Part shown: piece by piece, positions 18,271 to 37,480 of the stretch
How the letters are laid out: each line of letters opens with the position of its first letter
How positions within the stretch are numbered: position 1 is the stretch's first letter
Source of the DNA: Chloroflexota bacterium
GTDB lineage: Bacteria; Chloroflexota; Dehalococcoidia; Tepidiformales; Tepidiformaceae
Length of the DNA stretch: 64,000 nucleotides
NCBI GenBank assembly: GCA_016234445.1
Contig: JACRBT010000017.1
Coordinates: forward strand, 186,001 to 250,000
Direction of reading: 5' to 3'
Notes under the pieces: generated by a model
What the model was told of the DNA's origin: nothing
The model's input: only the letters and a program-made list of their open reading frames with translations
Database searches by the model: none
Translations under genes and position numbers: made by a program

Positions 18271-18341
18271 CACGGCAATGGGCGGTTCCGTGCCCGCAGG
18301 CACGCAAGAACAGGGCGCCCGGTCCGTCCGCGGCGGTCCAC
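18271..18341. repeat. Dispersed intergenic repeat, copy A
   Basis: About 71 bp matching 21882-21955 at roughly 85 percent identity. It contains a small hairpin (GTGCC-CGCA-GGCAC) that stays paired in the other copy. This copy lies just upstream of the sulfurtransferase gene. Confidence 0.6.
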
Positions 18342-20016: not shown

Positions 20017-20047
20017 GCCGGACACGGTGGTGGAGCGCTAGGCTCGC
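20017..20047 (+). repeat. 31-bp direct repeat, copy 2
   Basis: Identical to 19178-19208. The stop codon of the convergent DUF1801 gene (bases 20038-20040) falls inside it, so that gene borrows its terminus from duplicated sulfurtransferase sequence. Confidence 0.8.
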
Positions 20048-20460
20048 TTCGCTCGTCCTGACCTTGCCTTTCCGCTGGAGGTATTGAGGGCGACGGCGGC
20101 ACGGATGAGCGCCTGGAACGCGTCCGCATCGACCTCCTCCCCTTCATGGATGTCAATCGCGCGCCGTGCGTTGCCGTCGAGGCTTGCGTTGAAGAGCCTG
20201 GCCGGGTCTTCCAGCGAAGCCCCCTTGTGGAAGGTCAGCTTCACGACCGACTTGTACGACTCCCCCGTGCAGATGATCCCGTCGTGGGCCCATACGGGGG
20301 TGCCCATCCACTTCCACTCCTCCACGACGTCCGGGTCTGCCTCTTTGATGAGCTGGCGCATCCGGCTCAGGGTCTCCCCGCGCCAGTCCCCGAGCTCGGC
20401 GATCCTCTTATCAATCAGCTCCGATGTCGACTGTCCGGCGGTCGAATCCGACGATTTCAT
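20038..20460 (-). CDS. DUF1801 domain protein
   Basis: 140 residues. The DUF1801 pattern is clear (IKEADPDVVEEWKWMGTPVW, VVKLTFHKGASLEDP, AIDIHEGEEVD). The family is small, cytoplasmic and of unknown biochemical function. The C-terminal tail (SGKARSGRAKRA) is basic and ends in the 31-bp repeat, so the native C-terminus may have been replaced. Confidence 0.82.
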   Translation of the reverse strand: MKSSDSTAGQSTSELIDKRIAELGDWRGETLSRMRQLIKEADPDVVEEWKWMGTPVWAHDGIICTGESYKSVVKLTFHKGASLEDPARLFNASLDGNARRAIDIHEGEEVDADAFQALIRAAVALNTSSGKARSGRAKRA

Positions 20461-20755
20461 GTTCTCCCGATTGTAGCGTGATCACGACCCGCCCTCCCGC
20501 GGTTCGTGGGCGCCTGTTCTTGGAGCCACGTCGCTCCCAATCGCGGATGTGCAGGCGGGGTCATCCCGATGCCTTCCCGTCCGCAAGTGACCTCCCGGTT
20601 CAGGTCGACGACGCGACGGAAAAGGGGTTGAGCGCACGATGTGGTTGGCTCCGGTAGTGAGCCAGACCGATGGTCGCCAAAAGTGGGATCCTGTGGCCAT
20701 GTCCCTCCAGACCGACCGCGACTACCGTGAAGGTATTGCTCGTATGGAGGTTGTT

Positions 20756-21415
20756 ATGAGACGTCGTTTCATCGTTGCCGCACTTCCGTTTGCGCTGCTT
20801 GCGTTCGCCACAACTGTCACCTTCGCAAGCATCCCCGATTCGGACGGTACCATCCGGGCCTGCTATGCGAAGTCTGGCGGAGCACTGCGGGTCATCGACT
20901 CGAGCGTGAGCTCCTGCAAGTCAAGCGAGAAGGTACTTGAGTGGAACCAATCCGGACCAGCCGGACCAGCTGGAAACGCAGGGCCAGCCGGACCGACGGG
21001 CCCCCAGGGCCCAGCCGGTCTGACCGCCGCCTACGATGTCCCAGCGAACGGGGACCACGACGAGTTGACGGCAAGCGAATACCCTGGGCAGACGCTGAAT
21101 TCGATCGAGTTGCCACCGGGGAACTGGGCAGTATTTGGACGCGTAATGATCAGCAGCGATCTTGGTCTTACCGAATACTACGCTGCGTGCTACCTGAAGT
21201 CTCCGTCGGATTCCGGATACTACGACTCGGGCTACATCCTCGAGTCGGTCTCGACTGCGGGCCTTCAGCGAGCGTCCCAAACGATTTCTATGATGGCACT
21301 CGTCGCCTTGCCCGACGGCGGAACGGTAGTGCTGAGCTGCGTTGATAACCCAGTTCAGACGACGTTCTGGTCGAACGCGAAGATCATGGCCGTCCAGGTC
21401 TCGACCATCAATTAG
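20756..21415 (+). CDS. Secreted protein with collagen-like Gly-X-Y segment
   Basis: 219 residues from the ATG at 20756, with GGAGG upstream. A signal peptide is present (RRRFIVAALPFALLAFATTVTFA). A cysteine-bearing module with ACYAKSGGALRVID and a second cysteine follows, then a short collagen-like run of about eight Gly-Pro-Ala-type triplets. The C-terminal domain of about 130 residues resembles the beta-rich heads of collagen-like surface proteins. A cell-surface structural or adhesive role is likely. Codon use is less GC-rich than that of its neighbours, hinting at transfer. Confidence 0.75.
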   Translation: MRRRFIVAALPFALLAFATTVTFASIPDSDGTIRACYAKSGGALRVIDSSVSSCKSSEKVLEWNQSGPAGPAGNAGPAGPTGPQGPAGLTAAYDVPANGDHDELTASEYPGQTLNSIELPPGNWAVFGRVMISSDLGLTEYYAACYLKSPSDSGYYDSGYILESVSTAGLQRASQTISMMALVALPDGGTVVLSCVDNPVQTTFWSNAKIMAVQVSTIN

Positions 21416-21881: not shown

Positions 21882-21955
21882 ATACGGCAATGGGGGCGCT
21901 TCCGTGCCCGCGGGCATTCAAGCACAGGGCGCCCGGCCTGTCCGCGGCGGCCTGT
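21882..21955. repeat. Dispersed intergenic repeat, copy B
   Basis: About 74 bp, roughly 85 percent identical to 18271-18341. It lies 126 bp upstream of the heliorhodopsin gene. The central hairpin changes a G-C pair to G-U, so pairing is retained. Confidence 0.6.
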
Positions 21956-22081
21956 GTGCTGGCCCGTAGAAGGGCGAGTTCCACCGCACGGCCTTGCGCA
22001 CGTTGGGCACGTTGCTCACGATCAGTGCGTCGAGCTCGACCGCTGGGCGCGCGAAGCGCCAGGCACCAGCCAGGGAGACAC

Positions 22082-22852
22082 ATGACAATGGACGCTCGAC
22101 GGACTGACATCCGCTACCAGCGGATCCGCCTCTACAACGTTGCGATGGGAGCCTTGCACCTCGTGCAGGCGCTCGCCATCCTCGCGCTGAGCAACGACTT
22201 CGCCCTCCCGGTCCACGGAACGTTCATGGAAGGCCCGCCGGGCGAGGGGGCCGCGAAGATCCATCACCTGTTCGATTTGCGGATCGGGCCGGCCGTCGCC
22301 TCATTCCTCTTCATCTCGGCCGCGGCCCATACGATCCTTTCGCTCCCCGGCGTGTTCCCGTGGTACCGGAGAAACCTCGAACGGCAGCGAAATGACGCCC
22401 GCTGGATCGAGTATTCGGTGAGTGCATCGGTCATGATCGTCCTCATCGCCATGCTTACGGGCATCGGCGACGTGGCCGCGCTCGTCGCACTTTTCGGCGT
22501 CAACGCCTCGATGATCTTCTTCGGTCTGATGCAGGAACACGCGGAGCGGCCGGGCGAAGGGCGCCTGCTGCCGTTCTGGCTGGGCTGCATTGCCGGCGCC
22601 GTGCCCTGGATCGCCATCTCGATCTACATCGTGGCGCCTGGAGTCGATGCTTCGCCGCCGGCGTTCGTGTACGGCATTTTTGTCTCGCTGTTCGTCTTCT
22701 TCAATGTGTTCGCGCTTAACATGTGGCTCCAGTACCGCCGCATCGGCCCCTGGAGAGACTACCTTTTCGGCGAGTCCGTCTACATCCTGCTCAGCCTGGC
22801 GGCGAAGTCCGCCCTCGCCTGGCAGGTCTTCTTCCCGACTCTCATGGGCTGA
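22082..22852 (+). CDS. Heliorhodopsin
   Basis: 256 residues; the ATG at 22082 or the in-frame ATG at 22088 follows GGGAG. A seven-helix membrane protein of the heliorhodopsin family, which binds retinal with the N-terminus facing the cytoplasm and is not a pump. Helix 3 carries the counter-ion Glu110 in RWIEYSVSASVM, and helix 7 carries the Schiff-base Lys242 in LLSLAAKSALAWQ. Both positions agree with known members. The long A-B loop (HGTFMEGPPGEGAAKIHH) is also typical. No carotenoid cleavage or retinal synthesis gene is in the window. The function in this family is unsettled; signalling or enzyme regulation has been proposed. Confidence 0.93.
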   Translation: MTMDARRTDIRYQRIRLYNVAMGALHLVQALAILALSNDFALPVHGTFMEGPPGEGAAKIHHLFDLRIGPAVASFLFISAAAHTILSLPGVFPWYRRNLERQRNDARWIEYSVSASVMIVLIAMLTGIGDVAALVALFGVNASMIFFGLMQEHAERPGEGRLLPFWLGCIAGAVPWIAISIYIVAPGVDASPPAFVYGIFVSLFVFFNVFALNMWLQYRRIGPWRDYLFGESVYILLSLAAKSALAWQVFFPTLMG

Positions 22853-23075: not shown

Positions 23076-24179
23076 TCACGAAGGTAGCTCCTCGCCGGTA
23101 AGAGTCTTGTACACCGCCATGTAGCGTTCAGATGTCGCGGTGACGACGGCAGGCGGGATAGCGGGGGGCGGATCCCCGTCCTTCCAGTTAGCCGCCATCC
23201 AGTCACGTACAGGTTGCTTGTCGAAGCTTGGCTGGGCGCCGCCTGCGTGGTAGCCATCAACCCGCCAGAACCGGCTGCTATCTGGGGTCAGAGCCTCGTC
23301 GATGAGGATGACCTCGTCATTCCAGATGCCAAATTCAAACTTTGTATCAGCGATGATGATGCCGCGTGCGAGAGCGACCGCATGCGCGTAGATCGCGAGC
23401 GTACGCGTTTTCACGATGTTCGCCGCATCGTCGCCGAGGATGCTCGCAAGTTCTTCGTAGGAGATGTTCTGGTCGTGTCCGACTGCTGCCTTCGTCGAAG
23501 GGGTGAAGATGGGCTCGGGTAGCCGCTCGGACTCCTGGAGGCCCGCAGGCAGTGGGACCCCGCAAATCGCCCCTGTGCGCTGGTAGTCCTTCCAGCCGGA
23601 ACCGGAGATGTAACCACGTGCAATGCACTCGGCGTTGAGACGCTGAGCCTTGCGCACCAGCATGGTGCGACCGAAGTATTTCGCATCCAACTTGAACGGC
23701 ACCAGCGACGCGTTCTCTTCAGTGATCAGCGCGATGAAATGGGTCGGAACGACTTCCTTGATGCGATCGAACCACCAGGCGGAGAGTCGCGTGAGCACCT
23801 CGCCTTTGCGTGGGATACCGGTCGGGAGGGTGACGTCAAGAGCCGAGATCCGGTCGGTGGCGACGATCAGGAGGTTATCGCCCAGGTCGAAGGTGTCTCG
23901 AACCTTGCCCCGCGCCAACCGATTGGGAAGGTCGGTCTCGAGAAGGATTTCAGCCATCGGTTCTCTCCTTGAGGCGAATTCGGCTGCTTCGTTGCGCGAG
24001 GTTACGCCGAGGCGCGAGATCACTTCGCTGACGTGCCACTTCGCCCCCGCCAGGCTGATGCCAAGCGCCCTGGCGATCTCCGGGTTTGTGCGGCCGGCAG
24101 CCACCAGGCGCAACACCTCCTGCTGCCGCGGCGTCAGCCTGCTGGATGCGTCGTCTTGGGGCTGTGCAGTCGCTCCCAT
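23076..24179 (-). CDS. purC: LuxR-type HTH domain fused to SAICAR synthetase (PurC)
   Basis: 367 residues in one open frame. Residues 1-72 form a complete LuxR-type DNA-binding domain (RLTPRQQEVLRLVAAGRTN, then SLAGAKWHVSEVISRLGV). From Met75 the sequence is a full-length phosphoribosylaminoimidazole-succinocarboxamide synthase (LARGKVRDTFDLGDNLLIV, ATDRISALDV, GYISGSGWKDYQ, FEFGIWNDEVILIDE), step 8 of IMP synthesis. Met75 (base 23957) has its own AAGGAGAG site 6 nt upstream, so a 293-residue PurC alone could also be made. The ATG at 24179 has a TATGTT -10 box 6 nt upstream, so the full fusion would come from a leaderless mRNA. No other pur gene is nearby. Confidence 0.85.
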   Translation of the reverse strand: MGATAQPQDDASSRLTPRQQEVLRLVAAGRTNPEIARALGISLAGAKWHVSEVISRLGVTSRNEAAEFASRREPMAEILLETDLPNRLARGKVRDTFDLGDNLLIVATDRISALDVTLPTGIPRKGEVLTRLSAWWFDRIKEVVPTHFIALITEENASLVPFKLDAKYFGRTMLVRKAQRLNAECIARGYISGSGWKDYQRTGAICGVPLPAGLQESERLPEPIFTPSTKAAVGHDQNISYEELASILGDDAANIVKTRTLAIYAHAVALARGIIIADTKFEFGIWNDEVILIDEALTPDSSRFWRVDGYHAGGAQPSFDKQPVRDWMAANWKDGDPPPAIPPAVVTATSERYMAVYKTLTGEELPS

Positions 24180-24549: not shown

Positions 24550-25689
24550 TCACCATTGAACGAACATCGGCATGACGACGTGGACGTAGTCCTTCGGCTC
24601 GCCTTCTGCAACGACGGGGCGGAAGACGCCCTGGCTGCTGGGGCTCGTCATCTGGAGCTCGACTTCACCCGATAGCGCGTTCAGCACGTCCTGGAGGTAG
24701 CGGCTGTTGAAGGCGATCTTCGAGGCGTCGCCTTCGATCTTCGCGTCGATCTCGCCGTTGTTGTCGCCGATCTCGTCGGCGCGGGCGCTGATCGTGAGCT
24801 TGCCGGGCATGCCGTTCCCCGGGACGAGCTGCAGGCGGACGATGCCGCTGCCGTCGCGCGCGAAGATCGCGGCGATCCGCGTCTCCCGCTTGAACTCCTC
24901 CACGCTCACCGTCGCCTTCGTGTTGTAGTCCGCCGGGATGAGCTGGTTGTAGTTCGGGAACGTCCCCTGGATGAGCTGGGCCACCAGTTCCGTGTCGCCC
25001 ACCGAGAACAGGACCTGCGTCCGCTGGGGATTGAGCCGCATCTCGACCGGCTCGCTGCTTTCGCCCACGAGACGCGCGACTTCGCGCAGTGCCCGGGCCG
25101 GGACGATCACTTCCACCGCGTCTGAAGGCGCGGCAGGCAGGGTGATGTCCGAAACCGCCAGCCGGAAGCCGTCGGCCGAGGCGAAGGTGAGCCGGGCGCC
25201 GTCCGCTTTCACGTGGACGCCGGTGAGCACCGGGCGCGAGTCGTCCGAGGCGGCGGCGAATTCGACCCGCTCGATCGTCTTTCGCAGGGCCTTCGGGTCG
25301 AGGATGAGGCTGACGCCTTCGCTGAAGGAATGGATGCGCGGGAAGTCCTCCGCGTCCATGGTGTGGATGCTTGACTCGTTGCGCGCGCATTCAAGCTTCA
25401 GCTGGCGGCCGCGCTCCGGGATCTCAAGGCTCACCGTTGCCGGGGGCAGCGACGAAACGAAGTCGCCGATGAGCCGCGACGGCACGGTCGTCGCGCCGTC
25501 TTCGTCGATCTTCGCCCCGACCCAAGTGCTGATCGAGATGTCGAGGTCGGTCGCGGCCAGCTTGAGCCGGCCCTTGTCGGTCATCAGCAGCACGTTCGCC
25601 GTGATGGGGAGCGTCGATCGCGTCGCGACGGCGCGGCCGACGATCGAGAGGCCGCGCTGCAGGTTTTCCTGGAGCACCTGGACTTTCAC
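24550..25689 (-). CDS. dnaN: DNA polymerase III beta subunit (sliding clamp)
   Basis: 379 residues, GTG start at 25689. The protein forms the ring that tethers the replicative polymerase to DNA. The N-terminus (MKVQVLQENLQRGLSIVGRAV, then STLPITANVLL) and C-terminus (RPVVAEGEPKDYVHVVMPMF) are typical, and three clamp domains of about 125 residues fit the length. It lies near recF but in opposite orientation with an enoyl-CoA hydratase between them, unlike the usual dnaA-dnaN-recF order. dnaA is not in the window. Confidence 0.96.
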   Translation of the reverse strand: MKVQVLQENLQRGLSIVGRAVATRSTLPITANVLLMTDKGRLKLAATDLDISISTWVGAKIDEDGATTVPSRLIGDFVSSLPPATVSLEIPERGRQLKLECARNESSIHTMDAEDFPRIHSFSEGVSLILDPKALRKTIERVEFAAASDDSRPVLTGVHVKADGARLTFASADGFRLAVSDITLPAAPSDAVEVIVPARALREVARLVGESSEPVEMRLNPQRTQVLFSVGDTELVAQLIQGTFPNYNQLIPADYNTKATVSVEEFKRETRIAAIFARDGSGIVRLQLVPGNGMPGKLTISARADEIGDNNGEIDAKIEGDASKIAFNSRYLQDVLNALSGEVELQMTSPSSQGVFRPVVAEGEPKDYVHVVMPMFVQW

Positions 25690-30296: not shown

Positions 30297-31658
30297 ATGG
30301 AAATCGATACCGGGAACACGGCGTGGATGCTCGCAGCCTCCGCGCTTGTGCTCTTCATGACACCGGGGCTCGGCTTTTTCTACGCCGGCCTCACGCGCAG
30401 CAAGAACGTCCTTGCGACGATCATGCAGTCGTTCATCACCACCGGCGTCGTCGCCATCATCTGGGTGACCGTCGGCTATTCGCTCGCCTTCGGCCCCGAC
30501 CAGGGCCTCGGCCTCATCGGTAACTTCGATTACGTCGGCCTCAAAGACGTTGGCGTCGACCCGATTTCGACCGGGATCCCGCACCTCCTCTTCATGGCCT
30601 TCCAGATGATGTTCGCCATCATCACCCCCGCCCTGATCACCGGCGCCTTCGCTGAGAGGGCCAAGTTTGGGCCGTTTCTCGTCTTCACCGCGCTCTGGGC
30701 GTTGCTCGTCTATGTGCCCGTCGCCCACTGGGTCTTCGCGACCGACGGCTGGCTGAGCGCCTTTGCTTCGAACCCTGACACGCCCGACATCGGACTGAAC
30801 TCCCTGGACTTCGCGGGCGGCCTTGCCATCCACGTGAACGCCGGGATCGCGGCCCTTGCTGCGGTCTTTGTCTTCGGCAAGCGCAAAGGCTACGGCTCGG
30901 TCCCCATGGAGCCCCACGACATCACGATGGTCGTCCTGGGCGCCGCCATCCTCTGGTTCGGCTGGTTCGGCTTCAACGCCGGCAGCGCCCTCGGGGCCAG
31001 CGGCCAGGCTGTCTACGCCTTCGTCAACACCAACGTTGCCGCCGCAGTTGCCGGCCTGACCTGGACCATCCTGTCCTGGGCCATCCAGGGCAAGCCAAGC
31101 GTCGTTGGGGCCGCCGCGGGCGCCGTGGCCGGCCTCGTCGCCGTCACGCCTGCCTCCGGCTACGTCGAACCGATGGAAGCACTCGCAATCGGTGTCGGCG
31201 CCGGTGCCTTCTGCTACTTCGCCGTCCGCCTCCGCGCCAGGATCGGCCTCGACGATTCCCTCGACGTGGTTGGCGTCCATGGGGTCGGCGGGATGTGGGG
31301 TGCGCTCGCGACGGGCCTCTTCGCCAACGCCGCCGTCAGCGGGATCCCCTTCGCCGACGGTCTCATCCACGGCAACCCCCAGCAGCTCTGGGACCAGTCC
31401 GTCGGCATCGTCGCCGTCGGGGCATACTCCTTCATCGTCACCTTCGTCATCCTCAAGGTGCTCGACCTCACGGTTGGCATCCGGGTCACCGAAGACGACG
31501 AAGAGCTCGGCCTCGACGTCACCCAGCACGGCGAACGCGCGTACAACTCCGACGAAGCCGGTGTGGCCCTGCTGCCCGGGGCAGTGATGCCCGCGGCCCC
31601 GGCCATGTACAGTGCCACGACACTGCCGCACCCCGCGGCCAAAGGAGGCCACGCGTGA
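30297..31658 (+). CDS. amtB: Ammonium transporter AmtB (first copy)
   Basis: 453 residues, ATG after GGAGGG. An eleven-helix ammonium channel. Motifs include LFMTPGLGFFYAGLTRSKN, GAFAERAKFG, the first pore His in LAIHVNAG and the second in DVVGVHGVGGMWG. The cytoplasmic tail is longer than in E. coli and ends NLP-like without a clear motif. Its stop overlaps the glnK start, a classical amtB-PII pair in reversed order. Control by the upstream GlnR-like array is inferred. Confidence 0.95.
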   Translation: MEIDTGNTAWMLAASALVLFMTPGLGFFYAGLTRSKNVLATIMQSFITTGVVAIIWVTVGYSLAFGPDQGLGLIGNFDYVGLKDVGVDPISTGIPHLLFMAFQMMFAIITPALITGAFAERAKFGPFLVFTALWALLVYVPVAHWVFATDGWLSAFASNPDTPDIGLNSLDFAGGLAIHVNAGIAALAAVFVFGKRKGYGSVPMEPHDITMVVLGAAILWFGWFGFNAGSALGASGQAVYAFVNTNVAAAVAGLTWTILSWAIQGKPSVVGAAAGAVAGLVAVTPASGYVEPMEALAIGVGAGAFCYFAVRLRARIGLDDSLDVVGVHGVGGMWGALATGLFANAAVSGIPFADGLIHGNPQQLWDQSVGIVAVGAYSFIVTFVILKVLDLTVGIRVTEDDEELGLDVTQHGERAYNSDEAGVALLPGAVMPAAPAMYSATTLPHPAAKGGHA

Positions 31659-31996
31659 AGAAGATTGAAGCCATCATCCGGCCGGAGAAACTCAACGACG
31701 TGAAGCAGGCGCTCGACGACCTCGGGCTCCACGGGATGAACTTCACCCAGGTGACGGGCCGCGGCTCCCAGCGTGGCATCGTCCACCAGGGCCGCGGCGG
31801 CGAAACGGTCACCGTCGACATGCTCCCCAAGGTGAAGATGGAGGTCGTCGTCGCCGATATCGCCGTCGAACGGGCGATCGACGCCATCATCCGCGCCGCC
31901 CGCACCGGCAACATCGGCGACGGCAAGATCTTTGTCCTCCCGGTGGACGAAGCGGTCCGCGTCCGCACCGGCGAACGGGGTGACGTCGCGGTCTAG
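31655..31996 (+). CDS. glnK: PII nitrogen regulatory protein (GlnB/GlnK)
   Basis: 113 residues; the GTG overlaps the amtB stop and AAAGGAGG lies upstream. PII trimers sense ATP/ADP and 2-oxoglutarate and block AmtB by T-loop insertion. The core is normal (KKIEAIIRPEKLNDVKQAL, VDMLPKVKMEVVV, RTGNIGDGKIFVLPV). The T-loop is not: where E. coli has the modified Tyr51 this protein has Thr, and Tyr46 is Gly, with one extra residue (SQRGIVHQGRGGETVTV). Uridylylation or adenylylation at Tyr51 is therefore impossible. Confidence 0.93.
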   Translation: MKKIEAIIRPEKLNDVKQALDDLGLHGMNFTQVTGRGSQRGIVHQGRGGETVTVDMLPKVKMEVVVADIAVERAIDAIIRAARTGNIGDGKIFVLPVDEAVRVRTGERGDVAV

Positions 31997-32067
31997 GCAG
32001 CGATGTCATCGGCCCTCTCCTCCTGGCCCCGCCCTCTCGCAGGGGGCGGGGCCAGCCCTGTGCCGGC

Positions 32068-32121
32068 GAAATCTGTTCGTAACAAACTCGAAATCTGCCC
32101 GAAACCAACCGACCGTAGCTT
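32068..32121 (+). promoter_or_regulatory. GlnR-box-like array and -10 box of the second amtB
   Basis: GAAAT (32068), GTAAC (32079), GAAAT (32090) and GAAAC (32101) are 11 bp apart with six-base spacers. TAGCTT (32116-32121) follows after 10 nt. The arrangement and the -10 distance match the first amtB, though the surrounding bases differ. Confidence 0.7.
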
Positions 32122-32132
32122 TTCCCCCGTGC

Positions 32133-32160
32133 AGGCAGGCCTTTTCGGGCCCGCCTGCCT
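32133..32160 (+). terminator. Hairpin between glnK and second amtB
   Basis: AGGCAGGC pairs with GCCTGCCT and a T-run follows (TTTTG). For RNA reading through from glnK it would act as a terminator. For RNA started at the amtB promoter (near 32128) it would be a 5'-terminal stem-loop. Confidence 0.55.
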
Positions 32161-32177
32161 TTTGTTGGGGGAGGCAA

Positions 32178-33539
32178 ATGGAGATCGACACGGGGAACAC
32201 GGCCTGGATGCTCATCGCCTCGGGCCTCGTCTTGTTGATGACGCCGGGGCTCGGCCTCTTCTACGGCGGGCTCACCCGCAGCAAGAACGTCCTCGGGACG
32301 ATCATGCAGTCCTTCATCTCCATCGGGGTCGTCGCCCTCCTCTGGATAACGGTCGGCTACTCGCTCGCCTTCGGCCCCGACTGGCACGGCCTCATCGGCA
32401 ACTTCGACTGGGTCGGCCTCAAGGATGTCGGCGGCGCCCCCGGCGGCCCCAACGGCGCCATCTACGGCGTGGGGGTCCCCCACGTCCTCTTCATGGCCTT
32501 CCAGATGATGTTCGCGATCATCACACCGGCCCTCATCACCGGCGCCTTCGCCGAGCGGGCGAAGTTCGGCCCCTTCCTCGTCTTCACGATCCTCTGGTCG
32601 CTCTTCGTCTACGTCCCGATCGCCCACTGGGTCTTCGCCTACGACGGCTGGCTGAGCGCCTTTTCCACCGACGCCGCCCGCCCCGACCGGGGCCTCAACG
32701 CGCTCGACTTCGCGGGGGGCATCGCCATCCACGTCAGCGCGGGCACCGCCGCGCTCGCTTCCGTCTTCGTCTTCGGCCGCCGGAAGGGCTACGGCTCCCT
32801 CCCCATGGAGCCCCACGACGTGCCGATGGTTGTCCTCGGCACGGCCCTCCTCTGGTTCGGCTGGTTCGGGTTCAACGCCGGTTCCGCGGGGGGCGCCACC
32901 AGCCAGGCCGCCTACGCCTTCGTCAACACAAATACCTCCGGGGCCGCGGCCGCCGTGGTCTGGACGATCCTCAGCTGGCGGTTCAACGGCAAGCCCAGCG
33001 TGCTCGGCTGCACGGCCGGGGCCGTGGCCGGGCTTGCCGCCGTCACCCCCGCCTCCGGCTTCATCGAACCGATGGAAGCGATGGTCATCGGCCTCGTCAG
33101 CGGCGCCCTCTGCTTCTTCGCCGTCCGCTGGCGGGCGCGCATCCACCTCGACGACTCCCTCGACGTTGTCGGGGTCCACGGCGTCGGCGGGATCTGGGGC
33201 TCGGTCGCTTGCGGGCTCTTCGCCACCTCCGCCGTGAGCGGCATCCCCTACGCGAACGGCCTCTTCCACGGTCATGCCCAGCAGGTGTGGGACCAGTCGG
33301 TGGCCATCCTCGTCGTCGGACTCTTCTCCTTCGGGATGACCTTTGCCATCCTCAAGGCGCTCGACTTGCTCGTCGGCATCCGGGTTTCGGAAGAGGAAGA
33401 AGAACTCGGCCTGGACATCACCCAGCACGGTGAACGCGCCTACACCGCCGACGAAGGCGGGGTCGCCGTCCTCCCTTCGCCCATCCTCCCGGCGCCCCCG
33501 GTGACCTATATCCCTATGGCCCGCAAGAGTGAAGCGTGA
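32178..33539 (+). CDS. amtB: Ammonium transporter AmtB (second copy)
   Basis: 453 residues, ATG with GGGGAGG upstream. It is very similar to the product at 30297 (TRSKNVLGTIMQSFISIG, PMEPHDVPMVVLGTALLWFG), so the pair is a tandem duplication. The pore histidines are kept (IHVSAGTAALASV, DVVGVHGVGGIWG). The main differences are in the external loop after DVGGAPGGPNG and the C-terminal tail. No second PII gene follows; glnA is 127 bp downstream. Confidence 0.95.
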   Translation: MEIDTGNTAWMLIASGLVLLMTPGLGLFYGGLTRSKNVLGTIMQSFISIGVVALLWITVGYSLAFGPDWHGLIGNFDWVGLKDVGGAPGGPNGAIYGVGVPHVLFMAFQMMFAIITPALITGAFAERAKFGPFLVFTILWSLFVYVPIAHWVFAYDGWLSAFSTDAARPDRGLNALDFAGGIAIHVSAGTAALASVFVFGRRKGYGSLPMEPHDVPMVVLGTALLWFGWFGFNAGSAGGATSQAAYAFVNTNTSGAAAAVVWTILSWRFNGKPSVLGCTAGAVAGLAAVTPASGFIEPMEAMVIGLVSGALCFFAVRWRARIHLDDSLDVVGVHGVGGIWGSVACGLFATSAVSGIPYANGLFHGHAQQVWDQSVAILVVGLFSFGMTFAILKALDLLVGIRVSEEEEELGLDITQHGERAYTADEGGVAVLPSPILPAPPVTYIPMARKSEA

Positions 33540-33666
33540 CCGAAATCACCTGCTCCCGGCGATCGAAACATGAACTTCATCGGATCCGGCCGCTTTAGGG
33601 GATGGCCGGAACCGTGAAACGAATCACAATGAAGGTACCCCGCAACCTTCCCCCCAGGAGACTCCC

Positions 33667-35112
33667 GTGACCCCTGAAGAGATCAAGAGCTTTTGCGCCG
33701 CGAACAACATCCGCTTCGTCGATGTGAAGTTCGTCGACCTGTTCGGGCTGTGGCAGCACATCACCCGCCCCATCCACGAACTCAACGACTGGTCGACCTT
33801 CGAACGCTCCCCCTGGCGCGCCGGCTACGGCTTCGACGGTTCCAGCATCCGCGGCTTCCAGAAGATCGAGGAGTCCGACATGCTCCTCGTGCCGGACCCC
33901 GACTCCGCGATGATTGACCCCTTCATCCAGTCCCCCACGCTCTCGGTCATCGCCAACGTTGAGGACCCGGTGACCCGCGCCCGCTATTCCCGCGACCCGC
34001 GCTACGTGGCGGAAAAGGCCGAGGCCTACGTCAAGTCCAGCGGCGTCGGCGACACCGTCTACATCGGCCCGGAACTCGAGTTCTTCATCTTCGACGAGGT
34101 CCGCTTCGGGGGCGACCAGCACTCTGCCTTCTACAGCGTCGACTCGGACGAAGGCATCTGGAACAGCGGCGCCGACGCCACGCTCCGTGGCGACCTGAAC
34201 CAGGGCTACCGCCCGCGCTACAAGGAGGGCTACTTCCCGGTCAGCCCTCACGACACCCAGACCGACATCCGCAACGAGATGGTCGAGGTCATGGAAGCCT
34301 GCGGGATCCAGATCGAGCTCCACCACCACGAAGTCGCGACGGCCGGCCAGGGCGAAATCGACATGCGCTTCGACACCCTGAAGAAGATGGGCGACAAGTC
34401 GATGCTCTACAAGTACATCGTCAAGAACGTCGCCAAGCGCCACGGCAAGGTCGCCACCTTCATGCCCAAGCCGCTCTACCAGGACAACGGCTCCGGCATG
34501 CACACCCACCTCAGCATCTGGCGGGACGGCCAGAACCTCTTCGCCGGGAACGAATACGCCGGCATCAGCAAGATGTGCAAGCACTACATCGCCGGGCTGA
34601 TCCGCCACGGTAAGGCTCTCATGGCCATCGCCGCCCCGACGACGAACAGCTACAAGCGTCTCGTCCCCGGTTACGAAGCGCCCGTGAACCTGGTCTACAG
34701 CGCCCGGAACCGTTCGGCCGCCTGCCGCATCCCGCTGGTCAGCCCGGACCCCCGCCAGAAGCGCGTCGAGTTCCGCCCGCCCGACCCGGCCAGCAACCCC
34801 TACCTCACCTTCGCCGCCATCTTCATGGCCGGCATGGACGGCATCCTCAACGAATGGGACCCGGGCGAGCCGCTCGACCGCACCAACCTCTTCGAACTGA
34901 GCCCGGAGGAGCTGGAGAACATCCCGACCGTCGCCCAGTCCCTCGAAGGGTCGCTCCAGGCCCTCGAAGCGGACCACGACTTCCTCCTCAAGGGCGGCGT
35001 GTTCACCCCGGACCTGATCCAGACGTGGCTTGAGTGGAAGTACGAGAACGACGTCGACCCGGTCCGGATGCGCCCGCATCCCCACGAGTTCCACCTCTAC
35101 TTCGACGCCTGA
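33667..35112 (+). CDS. glnA: Glutamine synthetase, type I
   Basis: 481 residues from GTG with AGGAG 7-11 nt upstream. It makes glutamine from glutamate, ammonia and ATP as a dodecamer. Motifs: GYGFDGSSIRGF, ELEFFIFDEV, the ATP region KPLYQDNGSGMHTHLS and the glutamate loop VPGYEAPVNLVYSARNRSA. The adenylylation loop reads NLFELSPEEL: Phe409 replaces the Tyr that GlnE modifies, so control by adenylylation is excluded. I find no 11-bp GlnR-like array before it, only a lone GAAAC at 33616. Confidence 0.96.
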   Translation: MTPEEIKSFCAANNIRFVDVKFVDLFGLWQHITRPIHELNDWSTFERSPWRAGYGFDGSSIRGFQKIEESDMLLVPDPDSAMIDPFIQSPTLSVIANVEDPVTRARYSRDPRYVAEKAEAYVKSSGVGDTVYIGPELEFFIFDEVRFGGDQHSAFYSVDSDEGIWNSGADATLRGDLNQGYRPRYKEGYFPVSPHDTQTDIRNEMVEVMEACGIQIELHHHEVATAGQGEIDMRFDTLKKMGDKSMLYKYIVKNVAKRHGKVATFMPKPLYQDNGSGMHTHLSIWRDGQNLFAGNEYAGISKMCKHYIAGLIRHGKALMAIAAPTTNSYKRLVPGYEAPVNLVYSARNRSAACRIPLVSPDPRQKRVEFRPPDPASNPYLTFAAIFMAGMDGILNEWDPGEPLDRTNLFELSPEELENIPTVAQSLEGSLQALEADHDFLLKGGVFTPDLIQTWLEWKYENDVDPVRMRPHPHEFHLYFDA

Positions 35113-37105: not shown

Positions 37106-37154
37106 TAGGCAGGTATCGGTTGGCCCCAGCCAGCACGGCGCGGCGGGTGTTCCC

Positions 37155-37214
37155 TTCGCCGCGAGATGGCGGGACGCGGGGAGAACCACTCCTTCACAGT
37201 CGTGGCACGGCGAA
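37155..37214. repeat. 60-bp palindrome-ended intergenic element, copy 1
   Basis: Bounded by TTCGCCG and its complement CGGCGAA. The interior contains CCACTCCTTCACAGTCG. It is nearly identical to 37241-37299, and its right half recurs at 48907-48935. Confidence 0.65.
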
Positions 37215-37240
37215 CCGCGGGAGGCGGGCGTCTGTTCCCA

Positions 37241-37299
37241 TTCGCCGCGAGGTGGCGGGACGCGGGGAGACCACTCCTTCACAGTCGTGGCACGGCGAA
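37241..37299. repeat. 60-bp palindrome-ended intergenic element, copy 2
   Basis: 59 bp with the same TTCGCCG/CGGCGAA ends and the same core as the copy 86 bp to the left. Small non-coding, terminal-inverted-repeat structure suggests a REP- or MITE-like element. Confidence 0.65.
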
Positions 37300-37313
37300 C
37301 CGGGGGCGGCCGG

Positions 37314-37478
37314 ACATAATCACCCGGCAGTTAGCCCGAACGTAGTCACCCGGCAGTTAGCCCGGACGTAGTCACCCGGCAGTTAGCCCGGCGTTTTCTC
37401 CCGGCAGTCACCCGGACATAGTCACGCGGCAGTTAGGCCCGGACGTTTTCTCCCGGCAGTTACACGACAGTCAGCCGG
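37314..37478. repeat. Tandem array of about 26-bp units upstream of groES
   Basis: Six diverged units. The first three are 26 bp and nearly identical (ACGTAGTCACCCGGCAGTTA plus GCCCGG); the later ones alternate with a version in which the left part becomes CGTTTTCTC. The array ends 2 bp before the CIRCE element. No spacers are present, so it is not CRISPR. Confidence 0.75.
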
Positions 37479-37480
37479 AC

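Follow-up and report, generated by a model that had tools for sequence, protein, structure and literature searches.

An intact heliorhodopsin gene with a conserved retinal site in a Tepidiformaceae genome without matches to the searched retinal and carotenoid pathway families

To our knowledge, heliorhodopsins (HeR) still lack a general function. Several described systems nevertheless offer terms of comparison. An SxxxK and an ESL motif are reported as heliorhodopsin marks (PMC9601134). In Actinobacteria bacterium IMCC26103, the glutamine synthetase (GS) gene is adjacent to that of AbHeR and in the same operon, and an interaction between HeR and GS has been published (PMC9529153). HeR neighbours have been sorted into groups that include glutamine synthetase, photolyase, MerR, SDR, DUF2177 and others (PMC11109279), and both DegV and Blh have been reported as HeR-linked (PMC9385722). 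The cultured SAR202 strain JH545 has two HeR genes, one gene away from photolyase, and its growth is inhibited by light (PMC10444878). As regards the pigment, heliorhodopsin is said to be used by microbes devoid of a retinal pathway and to combine rapidly with retinal that is added, with an opening in the TaHeR apoprotein through which added retinal is admitted, and retinal scavenging for heliorhodopsin has already been proposed in print (PMC9296517). Chloroflexi are named among the organisms having rhodopsin genes but not blh and diox1, and retinal is produced by a strain of Aurantimicrobium minutum that has carotenoid genes but neither blh nor diox1 (PMC7734400).

The HeR gene described here lies in a window of 64,000 nucleotides, the whole stretch of DNA that was analysed, from a genome of 3.54 Mb that is 97% complete. 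The features of the window to which we refer are the following.

18272-18336 and 21884-21950, no strand: 65-67-nt repeat (87%), two copies in the genome
19178-19208 and 20017-20047, no strand: 31-nt perfect direct repeat, identical copies
20038-20460, minus strand: whole DUF1801 gene (Pfam match), 1.6 kb from HeR
20639-21415, plus strand: collagen-like protein gene upstream of HeR, weak match to PF01391 (18.9 bits, below the cut-off of 27.2)
21921-22079, minus strand: truncated gene immediately before HeR, an N-terminal fragment of DUF1801 (E 1e-3, 19.9 bits, below cut-off)
22082-22852, plus strand: HeR gene (PF18761, Glu110, Lys242)
23076-24179, minus strand: purC, preceded in frame by a LuxR-type HTH; purC has an ATG of its own at 23957
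24550-25689, minus strand: dnaN, the anchor gene, which also neighbours HeR in genomes G060 and G152
33667-35112, plus strand: GlnA (glutamine synthetase), last gene of a cluster (amt, glnK-like, amt, glnA) and outside the HeR unit

The HeR ORF is translated into 256 aa with no internal stop and matched PF18761 over the full model (positions 1-242 of 242; E 7.1e-102, 340.3 bits against a cut-off of 26.7), this being the one match to the family in a profile search of the contigs of the whole genome. The earlier note had called the gene a heliorhodopsin with Glu110 as counter-ion and Lys242 as Schiff-base residue, and the alignment agrees with this assignment: the numbering is as claimed and both residues are invariant in 111/111 aligned heliorhodopsins, 73 rows of which come from the same class. 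Ser238, forming with Lys242 the helix-7 SxxxK motif, is likewise found in each of the 111 rows. The helix-3 ESL motif with the Glu counter-ion is also present (E110 in 111/111 rows, S114 in 110/111, L121 as read from the window sequence), assuming, as we did, the letter spacing by which the three residues were placed. Among solved structures, phmmer retrieved HeR 48C12 (6su3, E 2e-79) and TaHeR (6is6, E 1e-63). The former (PDB 6su3, 6uh3) aligned over residues 13-255 and has the helix-3 RWxEYS and helix-7 SxxxK stretches in common with our protein, but its source is an actinobacterial fosmid; the latter is archaeal and identical at the key residues. Low dN/dS values were obtained, of about 0.08 against G077 (dS 1.69, near saturation) and of 0.14-0.18 against genus g3. 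By its sequence, the gene reads as a genuine, intact and ordinary member of an already known family. We infer an inverted topology (N-terminus cytoplasmic) and retinal binding in the cell, and a sensory role is suggested by analogy with what is known of the family.

Taken as a whole, the locus is probably best explained by a retinal-binding slow light sensor, encoded by a stand-alone gene, supplied with scavenged retinal, and exchanged and lost within the class. The product would be an inverted seven-helix membrane protein with retinal on Lys242 and Glu110 as counter-ion, would act as a slow light sensor and not as a pump, and would signal to a partner encoded elsewhere, not in the adjacent genes. 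The opsin would be loaded with environmental retinal in a cell having no detectable synthesis route; we infer both the retinal source and the signalling partner. The gene itself would be one of several lineages repeatedly exchanged and lost within the class, occupying, in the window lineage, a fluid segment on the downstream side of dnaN.

As for the supply of retinal, no match to PF15461 (BCD/Blh), PF03055 (RPE65), PF00494 (phytoene/squalene synthase), PF18916 (the family by which lycopene cyclase was searched) or PF00875 (photolyase) was found in the window genome; control genomes were positive for RPE65, PF00494, PF18916 and PF00875 and not for BCD, so the absence of BCD carries less weight. 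The same held for PF00494, PF03055 and PF15461 in the HeR-bearing genomes G077 (95% complete) and G107 (98%), and for PF00494 in the HeR-bearing G299, G309 and G338. Totals over the 393 genomes of the class were 0 for BCD above cut-off, 12 for RPE65 and 131 matches for PF00494, 129 of them above cut-off. Among the 76 HeR genomes, PF00494 occurs in 13 (in one of them, G052, below the family cut-off), RPE65 in 5, both in 3 and neither in 61; when only those of high quality are considered (n=56), 48 are without PF00494 and 53 without RPE65. PF00494 was thus found in 13/76 HeR genomes vs 118/317 others (p 7e-4) and, among high-quality genomes, in 8/56 with HeR vs 78/164 without (p 6e-6). Counted by genus, the figures were 10/50 with HeR vs 56/176 without (p 0.12), so we do not claim that HeR and phytoene synthase are negatively associated; shared ancestry could be the cause of the genome-level deficit. 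Type-1 rhodopsin was found in 0/38 genomes of the family, which shows little, the control genomes being negative too. In the part of the open literature on heliorhodopsin and retinal or carotenoid biosynthesis that was covered, no class-wide count of HeR against retinal genes was noticed.

Retinal scavenged from outside, from other cells, is the likeliest source, because an opsin deprived of its pigment is not expected to keep the lysine, yet the site is invariant and dN/dS is low. That the known genes are missing is no proof that retinal is not made: A. minutum makes it with neither blh nor diox1 (PMC7734400). In addition, the genome is about 3% incomplete. Synthesis of retinal in the cell itself, through a route as yet unknown and with no need of outside supply, is the first alternative to be weighed; A. 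minutum and the naming of Chloroflexi with rhodopsin genes but not blh/diox1 in the same source speak in its favour, but A. minutum keeps carotenoid genes, whereas in the window genome PF00494 and PF18916 are missing too, and PF00494 is missing in G077, G107, G299, G309 and G338, all of which makes this route unlikely.

The distribution of HeR is patchy: PF18761 matched 76 of the 393 genomes of the class, some as fragments only, and 12/38 of the family, with G173 holding nothing but a remnant. Two genomes of genus g8 share a HeR-bearing block (L085, L087), and in G173 (L088 8973-9050) a 26-residue C-terminal piece of HeR is left between the intact neighbours that flank the whole gene in L085/L087, a clear loss in place. 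Two broken HeR genes were also observed in the class (G115:C239:920-1662 and G389:C110:3762-4039), each split into two pieces, and one of the pieces has an internal TAG. It might be argued from this patchiness, from the loss in G173 and from the two broken genes that the window opsin is itself being lost, i.e. that it is still intact but without use, the pigment having disappeared from its lineage. We regard this as rather improbable, in view of dN/dS values of about 0.08-0.18 and of a retinal site invariant in 73/73 class rows, many of them from pathway-less genomes.

A scavenging sensor that is kept under selection and exchanged among relatives thus remains the preferred reading, and the position and phylogeny of the gene bear on the exchange. 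In G060, which belongs to another genus (g3), HeR is flanked by dnaN and a DUF1801 gene, as it is in the window, and in G152 it is near dnaN; G129 and G184 (genus g3) have dnaN and a downstream DUF1801 gene, which in G060 also lies downstream of dnaN, without HeR. Since the orientation of HeR relative to dnaN is inverted in the window, HeR may possibly have reached the dnaN spot independently in the window and in G060.

In the HeR tree, the window protein pairs with that of G077 (97/89), and the two join g3 and two family-f2 genomes in a clade of six Dehalococcoidia (99/94). AU tests were performed on a tree of 48 of the 111 rows, in which the bootstrap was not fully settled and which contains eight f1 rows, G288, G314 and G259 having been omitted and falling at other places of the larger tree. 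A clade of the window HeR with g8 was rejected (1e-53), and so was a single clade of the eight f1 rows (4e-5), and strictly vertical descent within the family is rejected with it; a clade of g1, g3 and g4 without f2 was not rejected (0.27). By contrast, the window GlnA is 86-89% like those of g8/g9 and 80-83% like those of g3/g4, and its DnaN is closest to g7/g8/g9 (77-79%), followed by g4 (76%) and g3 (71-72%); grouping the window with g3 and g4 was rejected for DnaN (0.007) and not for GlnA (0.31). Because the HeR tree conflicts with these affinities of GlnA and DnaN to g7/g8/g9, an older exchange of HeR within the class, with frequent loss, is likely.

The surroundings of the gene, i.e. repeats, a truncated gene and a collagen-like protein, had been taken in the earlier note as suggestive of transfer. 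All of them are present, the repeats being few and the collagen match weak. GC content at 20-24.5 kb (0.61-0.66) is the lowest of the window (mean 0.679, sd 0.027), and with the 31-nt repeat and the DUF1801 fragment it marks the segment carrying HeR as remodelled. The idea that HeR is surrounded by a dispersed repeat or by a mobile element was rejected, since the longer repeat has only two copies, no third being found in the genome at E<=0.001. An Rfam search of the window for RNA elements gave no match. Adjoining tandem repeats with 85-base and 26-base units were observed further along, at 37148-37480.

Repeats and remnants do not prove import, because G060 has a similar dnaN-HeR-DUF1801 setting and in G173 HeR has decayed in place. 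Transfer can thus be retained as far as the older exchange within the class is concerned, while the surrounding marks do not indicate a recent arrival, of which there is no sign in the window genome. Indeed, recent import from a remote source, for instance an actinobacterium, to which the low GC, the repeats and gene fragments and the 64-67% identity of the closest actinobacterial proteins might point, is highly improbable: the closest HeR proteins (82%, 80% and 78%) come from within the family and class, the clade of six Dehalococcoidia is supported, the setting in G060 is similar, and among the protein matches there was no donor more than 90% identical outside the class.

With regard to transcription units, the layout of HeR is isolated. 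The nearest upstream gene on the same strand, coding for the collagen-like protein, ends 666 bases away and the downstream neighbour, purC, is on the opposite strand, so HeR stands alone. In purC, a GerE domain (LuxR-type HTH, E 8e-14) is in frame with PurC with no stop between them, and AAGGAG precedes the PurC ATG at 23957; the arrangement at 23076-24179 is either a fusion or a chance run-on.

A glutamine synthetase had been indicated in the earlier note at about 11 kb downstream as a candidate partner. The gene is there, at 10.8 kb from HeR, but dnaN, recF and two amt genes separated by a glnK-like gene intervene, and the interval has genes on both strands. At 30297-35112 (plus strand) nitrogen genes are clustered: two ammonium transporter genes (amt, 73% identical to each other), the glnK-like gene between them (a name that is our reading of the ORF) and, last, glnA. 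AbHeR of IMCC26103 belongs to the same protein family and the window too has a GlnA in the wider region; there, however, HeR and GS are adjacent, in a host that carries crtEBIY and blh (PMC9529153), whereas here the two genes are 10.8 kb apart and such genes were not found. In the window, therefore, no GS gene is adjacent to HeR in an operon, the arrangement by which the GS group is defined. HeR and GlnA are about 321 kb apart in G060, 370 kb in G152 and 588 kb in G077, and no GlnA was found in the HeR flanks of the 119 other loci (120 searched with the window; most flanks were of 3-10 kb, which makes this a weak test at 11 kb). Their proximity in the window is best seen as chance, and the proposed partnership is not upheld. 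That the window HeR regulates GlnA as in IMCC26103 is very hard to credit, since, apart from the distance of 10.8 kb and the HeR-GS interaction on record (PMC9529153), the genes are neither adjacent nor in one unit, lie hundreds of kb apart in the three relatives and are not paired in any of the 119 other loci searched. More generally, distant neighbours such as glnA should not be read as HeR partners.

A stand-alone sensor signalling to a partner encoded elsewhere is still favoured for the window, and neighbours of HeR were also compared throughout the class. A light-stress-type neighbour (photolyase, MerR/B12, SDR or DUF2177) was found within about 5 kb at 24/73 class HeR loci, and none within about 5 kb of the window HeR. 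For some HeR neighbours in class loci we used the names SRPBCC-like and TIGR01777-like, which are our assumption; the SRPBCC-like neighbour had no Pfam match. With respect to JH545, the likeness is limited to the presence of HeR in Chloroflexota of the same broad group: two HeR copies near photolyase are described there (PMC10444878), whereas the window genome has one copy and photolyase was not found. In G190 (L095, L121), two HeR genes were observed, each one gene downstream of photolyase, matching the description of JH545 in that source.

A DegV gene lies within about 5 kb of HeR at 12/73 class loci, the window HeR being without it. In L114, L128, L130, L136, L141 and L142, the next gene after HeR, in the same orientation, is DegV, of a fatty-acid-binding family. 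The pairing was considered as a novelty and set aside, being already published (PMC9385722, citing Chazan 2022). A lipid carrier beside an opsin, in hosts without retinal genes, might have a bearing on retinal supply.

An intact retinal site and a low dN/dS in a genome without the searched retinal and carotenoid genes make the question of retinal supply a testable one. Tentatively, and with rather less than even confidence, we suggest that most HeR-bearing Dehalococcoidia, that of the window included, could be obligate retinal auxotrophs, in which the opsin would be kept under selection and would report light only near retinal makers. If this were true, HeR in auxotrophs would be a joint sensor of light and community.
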